Part shown: positions 23,533 to 29,852 of the stretch, piece by piece | How positions within the stretch are numbered: position 1 is the stretch's first letter | Layout of the letters: every line of letters begins with the position of its first letter | NCBI GenBank assembly: GCA_903945325.1 | Contig: CAJAVE010000139.1 | Location: forward strand, 1-32,526 | Direction of reading: 5' to 3' | Length of the DNA: 32,526 nucleotides | DNA from: an uncultured beta proteobacterium | Lineage (GTDB): Bacteria > Pseudomonadota > Gammaproteobacteria > Burkholderiales > Burkholderiaceae_C | Translations under genes and position numbers: made by a program | The notes under the pieces: generated by a model | Seen by the model: the letters and a program-made list of their open reading frames with translations, nothing else | Told to the model about the DNA's origin: nothing | The model's database searches: none

Positions 23533-24561
23533 ATGAATGATCTGACCCTGACCCGCCCCGACGACTGGCACCTGCATGTGCGCGACGGCGCCGCCCTCCA
23601 CACCGTGGTTCCCCACACGGCTGCCCAGTTTGGGCGCGCCATCATCATGCCCAACCTCAAGCCGCCGGTGACCACGGCTGCGCAGGCGCTGGATTACAAG
23701 GCGCGCATCCTGGCCGCTGTGCCTGACGGTATGCAGTTTGAGCCGCTGATGACGCTGTACCTGACGGACAACCTGCCTGCCGACGAGATTGCTCTCGCCA
23801 AAGACGCTGGTGTAGTGGCCGTCAAGCTTTACCCAGCCGGTGCTACCACCAACAGCGACGCAGGCGTGACCGATTTGCGCAAGACCTACAAGACGCTGGA
23901 AGCCATGCAGCGCGCTGGGCTGCTGCTGCTGGTGCATGGCGAGGTGACCTCAAGCGACATCGATCTGTTTGACCGCGAGGCCGTATTCATCGACACCCAG
24001 TTGATCCCGCTACGCAAAGACTTTCCCGAGTTGAAGATCGTGTTCGAGCACATCACGACAAAGGAAGCGGCGCAATACGTGCAGGCTGCGGACCGTTTCA
24101 CCGGCGCTACCATCACGGCCCACCACCTGCTCTACAACCGCAACGCCATCTTCACTGGGGGCATTCGGCCCCACTACTACTGCCTGCCGGTTCTGAAGCG
24201 CGAAACGCATCGCCTGGCGCTAGTGCAGGCGGCCACCAGCGGCAGCAATAGATTTTTTCTGGGTACCGACAGCGCGCCACACCCGGCCCACCTGAAAGAG
24301 CATGCCAGCGGCTGCGCCGGGTGCTATACCGCCCACACCGCCATGGAGCTGTATGCCCAGGCGTTTGATGCGGCCGGTGCGCTGGACAAGCTCGAAGGCT
24401 TTGCTTCGTTTCATGGAGCCGATTTCTATGGCCTGCCGCGCAACACGGGCACCATCACCCTGCGACGCGAATCCTGGTCCGTGCCCGAGTCTTTTGCTTT
24501 TGGCGAGGCGCTTTTGAAGCCGCTGTGTGGCGGCGAGACTTTGCTATGGAGGCTGGTCTAA
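23533..24561 (+). CDS. pyrC: Dihydroorotase, class II
   Basis: The protein has 342 residues. It catalyses reversible cyclisation of carbamoyl-aspartate to dihydroorotate, step three of pyrimidine synthesis. The binuclear zinc site is complete: H13 and H15 ([10 protein letters not shown]), carboxylated K98 (VAVKLYPAG), H135 (LVHGE), H173 (FEHITT) and D246 (LGTDSAPH), matching E. coli H16, H18, K102, H139, H177 and D250. The stop codon lies inside the first arm of a palindromic repeat, so the mRNA 3' end probably forms that hairpin. Confidence 0.97.
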
Positions 24562-24657
24562 GGGCATGGGCGGCAGAGCGTTCTGCTCCGTGTCCCCCGC
24601 CCGCTTCGCGAGCTCCTCCTTTACCTGCGCAGAACGCCCTACCGTCCATGCCCTTAG
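24558..24657 (-). repeat. Arm-variable palindromic repeat, copy 1
   Basis: Arms 24558-24586 and 24629-24657 are complementary at 26 of 29 positions by hand count and enclose a 42-nt core (24587-24628). Read on the minus strand, the core matches the core of copy 2 (26370-26411) at 37 of 42 positions. The outer 10 bp of the arms (CTAAGGGCAT and its complement) are absent from copy 2. The left arm contains the pyrC stop codon and the right arm the DUF3025 start codon. Confidence 0.8.
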
Positions 24658-25391
24658 CCTCTATTGACTGGTCTGCGCCATGGCTGGCCCCCTATGCCGA
24701 CGTGGGGCAGGGCGTTGCCGCCAAAGTGGCTGCGGGTGTGCCGAACGCCGACGCGTTGAATGCCGCACTGGCGCCCAATCCAACCCCGGTGCGCTTTGCG
24801 CCGCAGAGCGACTTGCCAGCTGGCGTGGCGTACGAGAGTTACATTTTTGACAGCAACTGCTGCCCAACCCGCGAGGGTTTGCATGACTTTTTCAATGGAC
24901 TGGCGTGGTTGCTGTTTCCTCTGACCAAACGCCGCCTTAACCATCTCCATGTGGCGCAGATCGCACAAACTGGTATCCAGCCGGTGCGTGGCCCGGCGCG
25001 CGACGGCCTGACCGTCTTTGACGAGAACGCAGCGTTTTTGCAATGCCCGGACGCGCTGTGGGACGCCTTGGCCACCAAGCAATGGAGCAATTTGTTTGGC
25101 CCACTGCGCCCGCTGTGGAACGAATCGCATCTGGTCCTTTTTGGACATGCCCTGCTGGAAAAGCTGGTTTACCCCAGAAAACCCATCACAGCCCACGTCT
25201 ACCGTGCGCAGGCAGCTACACATTCCATAGCGGATCTGGACGCCTGGATGTCCGCCGACCTGAGCGCCGAGCGCCTGGCCAGCAAACCCTTCGCCCACTT
25301 GCCGGTGCTGGGCGTGCCCGGCTGGTGGCCGGGCAATGATGTCCCCACTTTTTACGGGGACGCCCAAGTGTTCCGCGCGCCGCGCGCTTGA
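24648..25391 (+). CDS. DUF3025 family protein
   Basis: The protein has 247 residues. The segments IDWSAPWLAPY (near the start), YESYIFDSNCCPTREGLHDFFNGLAW (short: CPTREGLHDFFNGLAW), LNHLHVAQIAQ, GLTVFDENA and HLPVLGVPGWWP fit the DUF3025 family, whose function is unknown. The start at 24648 was chosen because family members begin just before the IDWSxPW segment. The frame is open upstream through the palindromic repeat to 24525, which would add a Pro/Ala-rich N-terminus of repeat origin. With the chosen start, the ATG lies in the stem of that repeat, which may limit translation. Confidence 0.82.
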   Translation: MPLASIDWSAPWLAPYADVGQGVAAKVAAGVPNADALNAALAPNPTPVRFAPQSDLPAGVAYESYIFDSNCCPTREGLHDFFNGLAWLLFPLTKRRLNHLHVAQIAQTGIQPVRGPARDGLTVFDENAAFLQCPDALWDALATKQWSNLFGPLRPLWNESHLVLFGHALLEKLVYPRKPITAHVYRAQAATHSIADLDAWMSADLSAERLASKPFAHLPVLGVPGWWPGNDVPTFYGDAQVFRAPRA

Positions 25392-25460
25392 ATTTGATCA
25401 AATCGACCTTACCATTCACGCTATTGGTCCTTGAAGACGGGCCAACGGAAAAAGGAAACC

Positions 25461-26336
25461 ATGAAACGCATTATTTTGTTTGTCTTGACCAATGTAATGG
25501 TCGTCGCTGTTCTGGGCATTGTTGCCAGCCTGTTGGGCGTGAACCGTTACCTCACAAGCAGTGGCCTCAACCTGGGTGCCTTGCTGGGCTACGCGCTGAT
25601 CATGGGCTTTGGTGGCGCCATCATTTCCCTGCTGATCAGCAAGCCCATGGCCAAGTGGACATCGGGCGTGCGCATCATCAACCAGCCGCAAAACGTGGAT
25701 GAGGCCTGGATCGTGGAAACCGTGCGCAAGCTGTCCGACAAGGCCGGCATTGGCATGCCCGAAGTCGGCATCTTTGAAGGCGACCCCAACGCATTTGCCA
25801 CCGGTGCGTTCAAGAACTCAGCGCTGGTAGCCGTTTCCACCGGTTTGTTACAGGGCATGACCAAGGAAGAAATTGAGGCCGTGATTGGTCACGAGATTGC
25901 CCACGTGGCCAATGGCGACATGGTCACCATGACACTCATTCAGGGTGTGATGAATACCTTTGTGGTGTTCCTGAGCCGCGTCATTGGTTACGCAGTGGAT
26001 AGCTTCTTGCGCAAGGGTGATGACCGCAGCTCCGGCCCCGGCATTGGCTACATGATCACGACCATCGTGCTGGACATCGTGTTGGGCTTTGCCGCTGCCA
26101 TCGTGGTGGCCTGGTTCTCACGCCACCGTGAGTTCCGCGCCGATGCCGGTGCCGCCCAGTTGCTGGGTCGCAAGCAGCCCATGATCAACGCATTGGCGCG
26201 CCTGGGTGGCATGGCTCCTGGTGAGTTGCCCAAGAGCGTCGCTGCCTTTGGCATTGCGGGTGGTATTGGTCAGTTGTTCTCGACCCACCCGCCGATCGAA
26301 GAGCGTATTGCCGCGCTGCAGAACGAACAGCATTGA
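25461..26336 (+). CDS. htpX: HtpX membrane zinc protease
   Basis: The protein has 291 residues. It has two N-terminal hydrophobic segments (about 4-25 and 37-60), the zinc site H144-E145-I-A-H148 with third ligand E224 in [11 protein letters not shown], and two further membrane segments between them (about 157-180 and 196-219). It degrades damaged membrane proteins together with FtsH. An AAAGGAAA ribosome-binding site precedes the ATG. The 69-bp upstream gap has CTTGAA at 25387-25392 with a loose downstream match to a heat-shock -10 box, and a perfect ATTTGATCAAAT palindrome; heat-shock control is plausible but not shown. Confidence 0.97.
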
Positions 26337-26343
26337 AACTTCT

Positions 26344-26437
26344 GGAGGCTGGGCGGCACAGTACTCTGCGTAGGTAAAGGGGGAGCCCGCGTAGCGGGCG
26401 GAGGACACGGAGCAGAGTGCTGTGCCGCCCAGCCTCC
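26344..26437 (+). repeat. Arm-variable palindromic repeat, copy 2
   Basis: Arms 26344-26369 and 26412-26437 are complementary at 25 of 26 positions. The 42-nt core (26370-26411) contains GGTAAAGGGGGAG, an inner GCCCGC-GTA-GCGGGC stem and GGAGGACACGGA. The inner 18-19 nt of the arms resemble copy 1; the outer GGAGGCT/AGCCTCC does not. It fills the gap between the convergent ends of htpX and the cyclic-nucleotide-binding gene, where it could act as a two-way terminator. Confidence 0.8.
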
Positions 26438-26441
26438 TGGC

Positions 26442-26999
26442 TCAACCCAGCGGGGCAGGGCCAGTTTCTGCGCTGCGCAATTCCAAATCAGCAAGCCTTT
26501 CGCTGGAAATGTCCAGGCGTGCCGATAAAACCCGGGCAATGTTGCGGTAGATGATGTGGGCGCTGTCGGGATAGGCGTCCACCCGTTCCCGGTCAAAGCG
26601 CATGGTGACGCTGTCGCGCAACGCTCTGACGGAGGCGGTGCGCAGGTGGTTGCCAACCAGCGCCATCTCTCCAAAGCAATCACCCGCGCCAATGGTGGCA
26701 AGCGTCACTGTGCGCTCGCCCCGGTTCTTCTCAATCACCACTTCACCGGCAATCACCACGTGGAAAGAGCTGCCGATGTCTCCCTCGTTGAACACCACAT
26801 CGCCCGCCTTGTGCGGCATGTGCTCGGCCATGGCCAGCGTGCTCATCAGGCAGTCGTGGGTCATGCCCTGGAATACCTTGACCTTGTTGGCAATTTTTTG
26901 AACGATGGCGGTGTCCAAATTCAGGCCCGTGGGGCGCTGGATGATTTCGGCGCGCACGTTCTCGGCAAAGATTTTGGCAACGGCTGGATCGACTTTCAT
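26442..26999 (-). CDS. Cyclic-nucleotide-binding domain protein without DNA-binding domain
   Basis: The protein has 185 residues. A CRP-type beta-barrel spans about 50-140 with MPHKAGDVVFNEGD and a complete phosphate-binding cassette, F109-G-E-M-A-L then R120-T-A-S-V. It should therefore bind cAMP, cGMP or a related nucleotide. A helical N-terminus (1-48) precedes it, and only about 45 helical residues follow; no helix-turn-helix is present, so it is not a transcription factor by itself. ATG 26999 was chosen; a TTG at 27029 overlapping the hoxJ stop would add ten residues. It directly follows hoxJ, so it is probably the last gene of the hox operon and may connect nucleotide signalling to the kinase. 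Confidence 0.85.
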   Translation of the reverse strand: MKVDPAVAKIFAENVRAEIIQRPTGLNLDTAIVQKIANKVKVFQGMTHDCLMSTLAMAEHMPHKAGDVVFNEGDIGSSFHVVIAGEVVIEKNRGERTVTLATIGAGDCFGEMALVGNHLRTASVRALRDSVTMRFDRERVDAYPDSAHIIYRNIARVLSARLDISSERLADLELRSAETGPAPLG

Positions 27000-27025
27000 G
27001 GCTTTGGATCGTACACCCGCGCGGT

Positions 27026-28384
27026 TCAATCGTTCGGCTTGATCCCTGGCAGGCGCAGCACGAATTCAGCCCCGCCTTGCGGGTGGTTGTGTGCGGTCAG
27101 GGTGCCGCCATGGCGTTCGACGATGCCATAGCTGATGGACAGGCCCAGCCCGGTTCCCTTGCCCACGGGCTTGGTGGTGAAAAAAGGTTCAAAAATACTG
27201 GACATCGTTTGGGGGGCAATGCCGGGGCCGTTGTCGTGCAGCGTGATCACCAGGAAGTTAGCCTCGCGGCTGGCGAAAATCCTGAGTACAGGTAATACAC
27301 CGGGCTGGGCGCTGGCGGCGTCGTAGGCGTTCTGGATCAGGTTCATCAACACCTGCAGCAGTTGGCCGGCATTGCCGGGCACAACGCATTCCGAACAGGT
27401 TTGCAGTTCGACGTCAAAGTCCAGCTTCATGCCGGTGCGTACCCAATGGATTGCACGTTCAATGACTCCATTTACATCCACGATCTCGGTGGTCTCTCCA
27501 TCCAGGGCGGAGAAGCGTTTGAGCCCGTCCACGATGCTGGCGGTGCGCTGTGCACCTTCGATGGTGCCGTCCATCAGCGAAGGCAGGTCGTGCAGGATGT
27601 GATCAATGCGCAGTTTCTGCGCCAGCGCCATCAGGGCCGGGTTGTTGCCCAGCGCGGCCTCGGCATGAACGGCATCCAGGTACTGGCGCAGACGCGTGGT
27701 ATAGCGATTGAGCGCATGCACATTGCCCAGCACGAAGCTGATGGGGTTGTTGAGTTCGTGCGCGACTCCTGCCACCAGGCGACCCAGGGATGACATTTTC
27801 TCGGCGTGCAGCAGTTGCTGCTGCGTGAGCTTGAGCGCCTCGTGCGCCTCATGCAGCTGGCGGTAGGCACGCTTGATCTCCGCCATGGGCCGCCCCACGA
27901 ACACATACCCCACACAGCGGCGGCGCCCGTCGTAGCGTGGCGTAGCGGTGAAGTCCACCGGCACAGAGTGGCCCGCTGCGTCGTGCAGCATCAGCTCCAC
28001 CGTCTCGCCCTGGCGCAAGGCGACGGCGTGGCGCATCATGTCCTGCAGCACGTCAGCGCCCCCACTGTTGTGCAGCAGTGTGCGCATGTGTGCACCTAAC
28101 AAGGCTTCTTCGCTGCAGCCCACCAGCTCGCACAGGGCCTGGTTGGTTTGCTCGATCAGCCCCTGCGCGTCGGCGGCGACCAGCACATCCGACATCGAGG
28201 ACAGCAGGCTGTAGATCAGTTGCTGGGATGCTTCCAGTTGCGCATTCTTTTCCTCCAGCGCCACCTCATCGCGCAGCAACTGCGAATATACGTCGTCCAT
28301 CTTGTGGATCACGTCCAGCCAGGTGTCGTCGTCCACCCCTTCCAGGGGCAGGTGACTGGATGCATGTGCGATATGCCGGTTCAT
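27026..28384 (-). CDS. hoxJ: HoxJ-like hydrogen-signalling sensor histidine kinase
   Basis: The protein has 452 residues and no membrane segment. A short N-terminal coiled coil (about 35-58) precedes a PAS domain (about 59-175), then the dimerisation domain with phospho-acceptor H209 in AGVAHELNNPISF, then the ATPase domain with NLIQN (348-352), DNGPGI (384-389) and GKGTGLGLS (408-416). In Ralstonia eutropha the HoxJ PAS domain contacts the regulatory hydrogenase and the kinase inactivates HoxA when H2 is absent. All ATPase glycines are present, so the kinase looks active. It starts 16 bp after hoxC; the frame open to 28660 only overlaps hoxC. Confidence 0.9.
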   Translation of the reverse strand: MNRHIAHASSHLPLEGVDDDTWLDVIHKMDDVYSQLLRDEVALEEKNAQLEASQQLIYSLLSSMSDVLVAADAQGLIEQTNQALCELVGCSEEALLGAHMRTLLHNSGGADVLQDMMRHAVALRQGETVELMLHDAAGHSVPVDFTATPRYDGRRRCVGYVFVGRPMAEIKRAYRQLHEAHEALKLTQQQLLHAEKMSSLGRLVAGVAHELNNPISFVLGNVHALNRYTTRLRQYLDAVHAEAALGNNPALMALAQKLRIDHILHDLPSLMDGTIEGAQRTASIVDGLKRFSALDGETTEIVDVNGVIERAIHWVRTGMKLDFDVELQTCSECVVPGNAGQLLQVLMNLIQNAYDAASAQPGVLPVLRIFASREANFLVITLHDNGPGIAPQTMSSIFEPFFTTKPVGKGTGLGLSISYGIVERHGGTLTAHNHPQGGAEFVLRLPGIKPND

Positions 28385-28400: not shown

Positions 28401-29852
28401 TCAATGCACCGTGCAGACCATGCAGGGGTCAAAGGAGCGCACGACGTGCTGCACCGCAACCGGTGTCTTTTCACCCGGTTGCACCGGCGCTCCCACCAGC
28501 GCGGCTTCCAGCGCACCCGGTGTGCCGTGGCGGTCCCGGGGGGAGAAGTTCCAACTGGTTGGGGCGATGATCTGGTAATTGGCAATGCGTCCGCCTCGGA
28601 TGGACAGCCAGTGGCCCAAGCTGCCGCGCGCGGCTTCGCACAGGCCAAACGCATCGGCATCCATCGGCAGCAGCGCTTCGTTGCTGCAAGGCGCTTCGGG
28701 AACTATGGCACGCAAACACTGCTCGGTCAGTATTACCAGCCGCGCCAGCTCTATGGCGCGGGAGAGTACCCGCGTTACCACGTTGCCGCCGGTGCGCTCC
28801 CACAGGGCACGAATCAGCGGCTGGCCACCCGCCAGTTGCCGGGCCAACGCGCCAGTTTCCAGCACCCGGCCGTCCAGGCGGGGCGCCTTGTTCCAGGTGT
28901 AGGCGCCAGGCTTGTCCATCTGCGGCATAGTCAGGCCGCTTGACGGGTGTAGTGCGGCACCTGCATCAGCCAGCCACGCGTGGCGCGCGTCCTCGGCAAT
29001 CTGCGACGTGTTGACCGGCTGCAGTATGCTGCCGTCCCACACACCGGGTGCCATCGCAAATTCGCCGCTTGGGTCGGCAAAACCGCCGTAGCTCAGCGTC
29101 AGACCGGGCCCGCGCCCGAGTGTGTCGAGTTGCAGGTCGCGGGCGATGGACAGGAACAACCGCAAGTCCCCGCGCAGGGGATCGCTCTGCAGCCACTGCT
29201 CCAGGGCCTGCTCACAGTTCAGTGCGACCACTTCTTCCAGCGGTGCGGCATACAGCACGCGCTCCAGGAAACTGCGCATCTCCGCCACCCTTGTGCCCAG
29301 CCGGAAGCGCTCGGAGCCACTCAGATTACGGGTCGAGCCGCCGGGGACTATGGATTGCGTGTGCGGCCATTTGCCGCCCAGCGTGCCCATGATGTGCATC
29401 CAGCGCTGGCGCACCGCCACGGCTTCACGGGAATGCTCACCGGATTGGGTGGACAGGTGGCGCTGGGCCTGCGCATGCCAGAACCGTCCAGCGTAAACCT
29501 CGCGTGTGAAGTCGGGCATGAAGAACAGGTAAAAATGGGTCAAGTGGTCAGCTGCGTTCTCGCAGGCCAGCATCAGGTTGGTCAGCCAGACCCCGTTCGG
29601 AGGTGCCTCCACGTTACAGACCGCAGCCAGTGCGCGCGCCGCCGCGACCGATTGCGTGACCGAGCAAATGCCGCAGATGCGGGGCACGTAAACCATGGTA
29701 TCAAACGGGTGCTTGCCTTGCAGGATCTGCTCAAACCCGCGGTACATGGGCGCGTTGACCCAGGCCTCGGTCACCCGTCCGTCGGCCACCTCTAGTCGGA
29801 CCTCCAGATCGCCTTCTACGCGGTTGAATGGGCCTACCAGCAAACGTGTCAT
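28401..29852 (-). CDS. hoxC: Regulatory [NiFe] hydrogenase large subunit
   Basis: The protein has 483 residues. Ni-Fe ligands are C60 and C63 (RICGIC) and C477 and C480 (DPCMVCTVH). The protein ends exactly at that last His, so there is no C-terminal peptide for a maturation protease to remove, as known for H2-sensing hydrogenases (HoxC/HupV). I62 and F110 match in type and number the bulky gas-channel residues reported to protect the R. eutropha sensor from O2. The start overlaps the hoxB stop by 4 bp. With HoxB it forms the cytoplasmic H2 sensor. Confidence 0.96.
   Translation of the reverse strand: MTRLLVGPFNRVEGDLEVRLEVADGRVTEAWVNAPMYRGFEQILQGKHPFDTMVYVPRICGICSVTQSVAAARALAAVCNVEAPPNGVWLTNLMLACENAADHLTHFYLFFMPDFTREVYAGRFWHAQAQRHLSTQSGEHSREAVAVRQRWMHIMGTLGGKWPHTQSIVPGGSTRNLSGSERFRLGTRVAEMRSFLERVLYAAPLEEVVALNCEQALEQWLQSDPLRGDLRLFLSIARDLQLDTLGRGPGLTLSYGGFADPSGEFAMAPGVWDGSILQPVNTSQIAEDARHAWLADAGAALHPSSGLTMPQMDKPGAYTWNKAPRLDGRVLETGALARQLAGGQPLIRALWERTGGNVVTRVLSRAIELARLVILTEQCLRAIVPEAPCSNEALLPMDADAFGLCEAARGSLGHWLSIRGGRIANYQIIAPTSWNFSPRDRHGTPGALEAALVGAPVQPGEKTPVAVQHVVRSFDPCMVCTVH

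Follow-up and report, generated by a model that had tools for sequence, protein, structure and literature searches.

Short palindromic repeats have been described in several bacterial systems, summarized here from the available parts of the cited papers. The Rickettsia palindromic elements (RPEs) and the Wolbachia palindromic elements are ∼100 to 150 bp long and occur in intergenic regions as well as within conserved protein genes, whose reading frame they keep, and the one RPE-bearing product tested, guanylate kinase, was active with an altered substrate affinity (PMC2229807, PMC10969869). REPINs and BIMEs are non-autonomous, dispersed extragenic palindromes, often of alternating orientation, with a repetitive extragenic palindromic (REP) unit of 20 to 40 bp (PMC3733652); they carry a GTAG or CGTC tag and have a cognate RAYT. 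BREs of betaproteobacteria, including Rhodoferax and Polaromonas, are ∼90 bp long, chromosomal, intergenic, and suspected to be mobile; some copies lie wholly within coding sequences, and they are not co-oriented with replication. In Bordetella, BREs form tandem arrays and overlap a transcript of ∼80 nt (PMC3110155), and the level of bprJ is altered in an RNase III mutant (PMC8386462). Here, we analyze two palindromes in a 32,526-nt stretch of DNA (the window; contig CAJAVE010000139.1 of assembly GCA_903945325.1) from an uncultured beta proteobacterium. An original prediction, made from the letters of the window, had described them as copies of a repeat with one core and locus-specific, self-complementary arms. 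They belong to a dispersed Burkholderiales family of ∼96-nt hairpins.

Like the RPEs, this element is palindromic and is found in frame within conserved protein genes, which suggests that in-frame protein-coding palindromes are not confined to the Rickettsiales. Judged by hosts and design rather than by sequence, it is set apart from them by its Burkholderiales rather than Rickettsiales hosts, the pairing shown to be kept on one strand, a conserved internal loop, the occurrence of both orientations at one site, and dimers. With REPINs and BIMEs, which had been considered as relatives, the element shares inverted dimers (28/31 in −+ order), so that a functional analogy stands. Membership in that group does not, since a GTAG or CGTC tag is present at the hairpin foot in just 11 and 9 of 150 sites, the unit measures ∼92 to 100 nt, and the distribution of RAYT does not track the element; in addition, it is the loop sequence and not the stem sequence that is conserved here. 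The resemblance to miniature inverted-repeat transposable elements such as NEMIS and ERIC lies in the short length, the terminal inverted repeats, and the lack of a gene, whereas neither a clear target-site duplication nor a cognate transposase (Y1 and RVT_1 only were checked) was noticed.

Compared by description and not by sequence, the element also agrees with the BRE of 2011 in size, hosts, and location, while the available part of that text describes no hairpin, in-frame reading, or function (PMC3110155). On this likeness, BRE may be the same family. A tandem-core pattern gave 8 matches in 399 family genomes versus 16 for the reversed control, Bordetella being perhaps unsampled in that set. 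The open-licence literature contained no description of the element, BRE possibly excepted. According to the available part of a motif survey, Rhodoferax ferrireducens T118 has the most spaced motif pairs (140) among the genomes analyzed (PMC5217627), and the palindrome family could be behind them. The Rfam gathering score was not reached by the window or by five further loci, and at a lax threshold four loci gave just weak microRNA and sX6 matches.

A dispersed hairpin family with pairing conserved on one strand

Both palindromes proved to be real and to lie in opposite orientation, with 1701 nt between their matching blocks (Table 1). The predicted identity of the cores (37 of 42 positions) was borne out, and the arms are separated by 42 nt in each copy; the central purines of the copy 2 core are swapped relative to copy 1. 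The arms are 90% complementary over 29 nt in copy 1 and 96% complementary over 26 nt in copy 2, and the outermost pairs differ from copy to copy with pairing kept within each. No dinucleotide shuffle out of 200 folded as well as the native sequence, for either strand of either copy and for folding as RNA or DNA, which, together with 54 matches to the family model in the genome, rules out chance palindromes. Despite their opposite orientation, both copies fold better on the strand bearing the purine-rich core: the RNA fold energy is −63.3 kcal/mol for the − strand of copy 1 versus −54.4 kcal/mol for its other strand, and −73.3 kcal/mol for the + strand of copy 2 versus −67.6 kcal/mol. This strand runs antisense to both adjoining genes at copy 1; at copy 2, it is the sense strand of htpX and the antisense strand of the Crp-like gene.

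The search for further copies of the core, which the original prediction had proposed, found many in the same genome and in relatives. In the same genome, BLAST with copy 1 gave 44 matches at 40 distinct places, and a covariance model gave 54, contig-end fragments included. An origin of both copies from one local inverted duplication is excluded because the window copies are two of ∼54 dispersed copies. The model was built from 74 copies, the gap-free type-A set (see below) selected for equal length and type out of 178 parsed copies; 180 matches had been collected, of which two were unparsed and dropped. It also matched four relatives (G048, 90 matches; G007, 36; G001, 29; G059, 30). BLAST matches were present in at least 46 of 61 genomes of the genus, and model matches in at least 71 of 160 genomes of the family. 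In a class-wide sample of 369 genomes, at least four matched: the genome of the window, one of the same family, and two of another family, which have the same core with unrelated arms. The family and class-wide counts are lower bounds because stricter filters were applied there. Named hosts among the matches listed are Rhodoferax, Hydrogenophaga, Curvibacter, Ramlibacter, Roseateles, and Oxalobacteraceae. Phages and plasmids as carriers were considered and set aside, as a core-pattern search of viral contigs and a search of plasmids with copy 1 both gave zero matches; the phage collection itself was not searched. The assembly breaks at the hairpins: at least nine contigs of the same genome (C99, C196, C53, C393, C77, C98, C32, C145, and C372) start or end in or beside a copy.

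The unit is ∼96 nt long (range, ∼92–100 nt). On the purine-rich strand, it reads outer arm, AGGTNAAGGRGGAG, apical stem, CGGRGGACAC, outer arm, and AGGTNAAGGRGGAG lies opposite CGGRGGACAC in a conserved asymmetric internal loop with G.A-type mismatches. By eye, the G.A-type mismatches that adjoin the core have one Watson-Crick pair between two of them (type A) or stand in tandem (type B). At 127 of 150 sites, the outer stem (∼25 bp) ends 25 to 32 positions away from the core; its length is thus nearly fixed, and its sequence is not. Most of the locus-specific arms resemble, by eye, one drifted, AGGAGCCTGGGCGGCAGAGC-like consensus. The apical stem is small, and its sequence varies together with its pairing partner. 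Two central purines swap jointly (153 A/G, 16 G/A, 7 A/A, and 2 G/G among 178 copies; Fisher p = 1.4e-15), a pattern compatible with either a G.A pair or a quadruplex-like arrangement. On the purine strand, the core (AAGGAGGAG) has a Shine-Dalgarno-like string within the conserved loop.

The arms are complementary in the other copies as well. In the gap-free alignment, 95.6% of cells are paired versus 75.7% after shuffling, and pairing drops to 36 to 44% in slid registers. Changes on both sides occur in 26 of 32 pairs, and there are 432 double-changed cells versus 112.9 in shuffled alignments, a number reached by 0 of 500 shuffles. Wobble pairs in the outer stem, counted in those 164 of the 178 parsed copies that have 25 nt of sequence to either side, are strand-specific: G.U was found 308 times on the purine-rich strand versus 58 on the other, so that the same mismatches read on the pyrimidine strand are 308 A.C and 58 G.T. 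This asymmetry is independent of the direction in which the host gene is transcribed. The ratio is 78:11 when the mRNA corresponds to the pyrimidine strand and 81:14 when it corresponds to the purine strand, 54:10 between convergent genes and 14:4 between divergent genes, and 32:8 and 12:1 inside genes, the latter for genes read in the pyrimidine sense.

The same bias was observed between orthologous copies that share a site (52 pairs from 39 site clusters; identical pairs and pairs with <55% arm identity were excluded). Single-sided changes numbered 94 from Watson-Crick to G.U, 19 to A.C, and 41 to other combinations on the purine strand, beside 99 double changes from one Watson-Crick pair to another (p = 4e-13 for the asymmetry). 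Since the wobble is strand-specific whatever the host-gene direction, and since the ratio between orthologs is 94:19, it is on one strand that the hairpin structure is conserved. Strand symmetry is what both neutral decay and palindrome correction at the DNA level would predict, and both are thereby disfavored. Of the two explanations offered for the locus-specific arms in the original prediction, a selected structure or arms formed from target sequence, the massive covariation and the ortholog changes support the former.

Insertion sites, host genes, and orientation

Genes were called with a purpose-written codon-model caller, which gave the context of 177 of the 180 copies, three loci being too short. 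The majority (118) are intergenic, 29 lie at gene edges, and 30 lie inside open frames. A facing 3' end lies at a median distance of 26 nt and a facing 5' end at 103 nt, and single copies lie near stop codons in both orientations. Judged from their sequence, the in-gene copies are in-frame inserts in open genes. The length of the in-gene core is a multiple of three in 29 of 29 parsed copies, with intergenic cores mixed, a result that is partly by construction because an open frame was the criterion for the in-gene class. Purine-sense in-gene copies (24/30) read ..GSAQVKEEPAKRAGDTEQ.. in the protein. The host genes identified by Pfam include MutS, PriA, Tex, MurD, a Mur ligase, an AraC regulator, and an alpha-amylase; we take the Mur ligase to be Mpl, and from its sequence we presume MutL to be a host gene too. 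No solved structure carrying the insert peptide was found; the solved chain closest to one host protein can be aligned up to the insert and again beyond it, but the insert itself is missing from that chain. Two adjacent copies in opposite orientation are present in one open AraC-type gene (L226 in G048).

Comparison with relatives revealed empty sites at both window loci and within genes. Relative to empty orthologs, the insert is 96 nt at the isomerase, mutS, and alpha-amylase sites and 93 nt at the L032 site, which has a shorter core. The pyrC-ybgA interval is empty in G022, G048, and G007, holds the element inverted in G055, and has another repeat in G003 and another gene in G043 (G009 was not anchorable). 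The repeat in G003 (L197), at the site of copy 1, is short, GGGACAGACCTTCAGCTCTGTCCCC-like, and present in two to three copies; G055 (L196) has, besides the copy at the pyrC end, a second palindromic copy in or near the ybgA start. The htpX-crp interval is empty in G003, G022, G043, G048, and G055 and contains the element with other arms in G009 (G007 was not anchorable). Of 33 Mpl loci, two of them from one strain, 20 have the element, five have a loop of 5 to 6 residues, and eight have a longer loop without the element. Both orientations are seen at this site, where Hydrogenophaga also carries the element. The eight longer loops (L178–L183, L185, and L186), of ∼16 to 25 residues with no recognizable element, are possibly decayed insertions.

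Under a strict same-site criterion (flank matches reaching to within 20 nt of each end of the stem), 60 pairs had the same orientation and 16 were inverted, with both orientations present at 6 of 22 sites. Neighboring copies <300 nt apart are arranged with the purine strands outward in 28 of 31 cases, a count that includes orthologous loci; one in-gene pair in G048 has the reversed arrangement, and one pair, in L074, is head-to-tail. By eye, all 15 close pairs among the matches listed for the family scan are purine-outward, as are the 10 listed for the class-wide scan, including those of both other-family genomes; the arrangement recurs in other genera and in another family of the class. The family, with copies by the tens per genome, empty sites matched to filled ones, and both orientations, is a large natural data set in which strand-specific hairpin conservation can be separated from host transcription, and the long-standing question why palindromic repeats of bacteria retain their structure becomes directly testable.

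A candidate factor reading one strand and the rival explanations

The family points to a factor that recognizes one strand. We hypothesize, at about an even chance, that the copies are a non-autonomous, dispersed foldback element read on the purine strand by a trans-acting factor. The purine-rich strand would fold into an outer stem of ∼25 bp, the conserved asymmetric internal loop, and a small apical stem, and the factor would read the loop and a bare duplex of near-fixed length on this one strand, most likely as single-stranded DNA or else as RNA. Because only the loop and a bare duplex would be recognized, the arm sequence would be free to drift while paired, and paired drift would thus give locus-specific, self-complementary arms. 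The factor may spread, re-insert, or invert the element, with copies persisting where they are harmless, just past stop codons or in frame in genes, where a copy would form an insert of ∼32 residues at a tolerant protein loop. Tentatively, the element could be the substrate of a hairpin recombinase that sees a purine-rich loop in a duplex of fixed length and free sequence, copies being inverted or re-made in place, including those in mutS and priA and in two orders of the class; the loop would then consist of G.A pairs or of a GGRGG/GGRGG quadruplex-duplex hybrid.

Several observations weigh against the foldback-element hypothesis. No recombinase was found among the Y1 and RVT_1 families (others were not searched). 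Y1_Tnp is present in 55 of 61 genomes of the genus, including the copy-free G004, G008, G017, G028, and G035, and RVT_1 is present in 21 of 61 and was not found in G048 (90 copies), G001, or G034. No clear target duplication was seen at 150 sites, the borders of which are uncertain, and among the matches listed for four genomes there was no replichore or lagging-strand bias, the position of the origin being not known. The ortholog pair L038/L172 (Mpl) has five A.C versus four G.U changes, and L036/L219, L102/L184, L119/L154, and L243/L282 show A.C changes and zero G.U. The flanks used to match ortholog pairs could lie at a distance from the element, kinship among copies inflates the covariation counts, and some of the orientation switches may be second insertions. 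Finally, transcribed RNA explains the in-place conservation on one strand as easily.

At offset 0, direct repeats of 2, 3, 4, 5, and 6 nt occur at 9, 5, 1, 0, and 0 of the 150 sites versus 10.4, 3.0, 0.8, 0.3, and 0.06 in the control; 32 two-nucleotide matches at offset −2 and two five-nucleotide matches at offset −1 have no control of their own. RAYT was ruled out as the mobilizer by its phyletic mismatch with the copies: Y1_Tnp was not found in G031, G043, and G052 (91, 66, and 88% complete), each with at least 14 to 16 copies, and no hairpin was found near the RAYT of the window's own genome. Reverse transcriptase was rejected likewise, as its distribution does not track the element. Contig C1 of G059 has twelve RVT_1 matches, eleven of equal score and several paired ∼1.9 kb apart, which suggests a recent mobile element with no relation to the palindromes. 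The gene between the two copies of L148 was considered as an autonomous element and discarded as not transposase-like; from its translation, we take it to resemble NAD(P)H-hydrate epimerase.

The main rival, possible although we hold it less probable than the foldback element, is a transcribed structured RNA of the purine strand, a small RNA or a site of RNA-protein binding, whose pairing is under selection. It would explain why G.U is tolerated on one strand only and, if BRE is the same family, would accord with the Bordetella transcript of ∼80 nt (PMC3110155) and the effect of RNase III on bprJ (PMC8386462), as far as the available parts of these papers go. However, the asymmetry is no different at copies whose purine strand is antisense to the host gene, the flanks outside the stem at 140 sites show no promoter-like conservation, the many dispersed copies stand beside unrelated genes, and BRE is linked by description only. 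A DNA-level process without selection, such as template switching or hairpin-mediated correction of quasi-palindromes, would yield double changes, homogenized arms, core inversion, and the native flank copied into an arm that is seen at mutS; we consider it improbable because it predicts equal G.T and A.C on the two strands, contrary to the observed 308:58 overall and 94:19 in situ.

The proposal that snap-back copying of target DNA upon insertion makes the arms, as a birth mark, is only weakly supported. At mutS (L033), one of 10 aligned in-gene sites, the outer left arm consists of native codons and the right arm of their complement, which is absent from two empty orthologs; pyrC has a small overlap of at most about five target-derived base pairs. 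In one mutS ortholog, a synonymous change in the left arm is matched on the right arm, and the pattern could alternatively come from later compensation. As an account of the family, snap-back copying seems a slim prospect, since most arms share the AGGAGCCTGGGCGGCAGAGC-like consensus and diverge from it by paired substitutions, and orthologous copies go on changing their arms after insertion. Least credible of all are ordinary transcription terminators: the position near stop codons in both orientations would suit them, but TTTT follows within 30 nt past the stem at just 7 of 140 sites on the purine strand and 14 on the pyrimidine strand, and 30 copies lie within open genes.

The window copies and their neighbors

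The contact of both copies with gene ends, noted at the outset, was confirmed and refined. The pyrC frame ends at 24561, which places its stop codon within the left arm of copy 1. Between the end of the htpX frame (26336) and the start of copy 2 there are 7 intervening nucleotides, and 4 separate the end of copy 2 from the convergent Crp-like frame (26442). The gene names pyrC, YbgA, htpX, and Crp-like are those that we presume from the translations.

Table 1. Coordinates of the two palindromes and the adjoining genes in the window.
Feature	Position	Strand	Remarks
Copy 1, whole palindrome	24558..24657	-	Arms; model R1 match 24560-24655 on -, E 2.3e-18; better fold on -
Copy 1 left arm	24558..24586	.	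29 nt; contains end of pyrC
Copy 1 core	24587..24628	-	Apical hairpin 24599-24613, flanked on each side by the conserved asymmetric internal loop
Copy 1 right arm	24629..24657	.	29 nt
Copy 2, whole palindrome	26343..26438	+	Arms 26344-26369 and 26412-26437; model R1 match on +, E 3.1e-18
Copy 2 core	26370..26411	+	GGTAAAGGGGGAG 26373-26385, apical hairpin 26386-26398, CGGAGGACAC 26399-26408
pyrC-like gene	23533..24561	+	Upstream of copy 1; gene calls; present in relatives
YbgA-like gene	24648..25391	+	Between the copies; gene calls
htpX-like gene	25461..26336	+	Upstream of copy 2; gene calls
Crp-like regulator	26442..27029	-	Convergent with htpX; gene calls

Elsewhere in the window, a frame at 28401-29852 presumably resembles, from its translation, the large subunit of a group 4 hydrogenase of the HyfG type.

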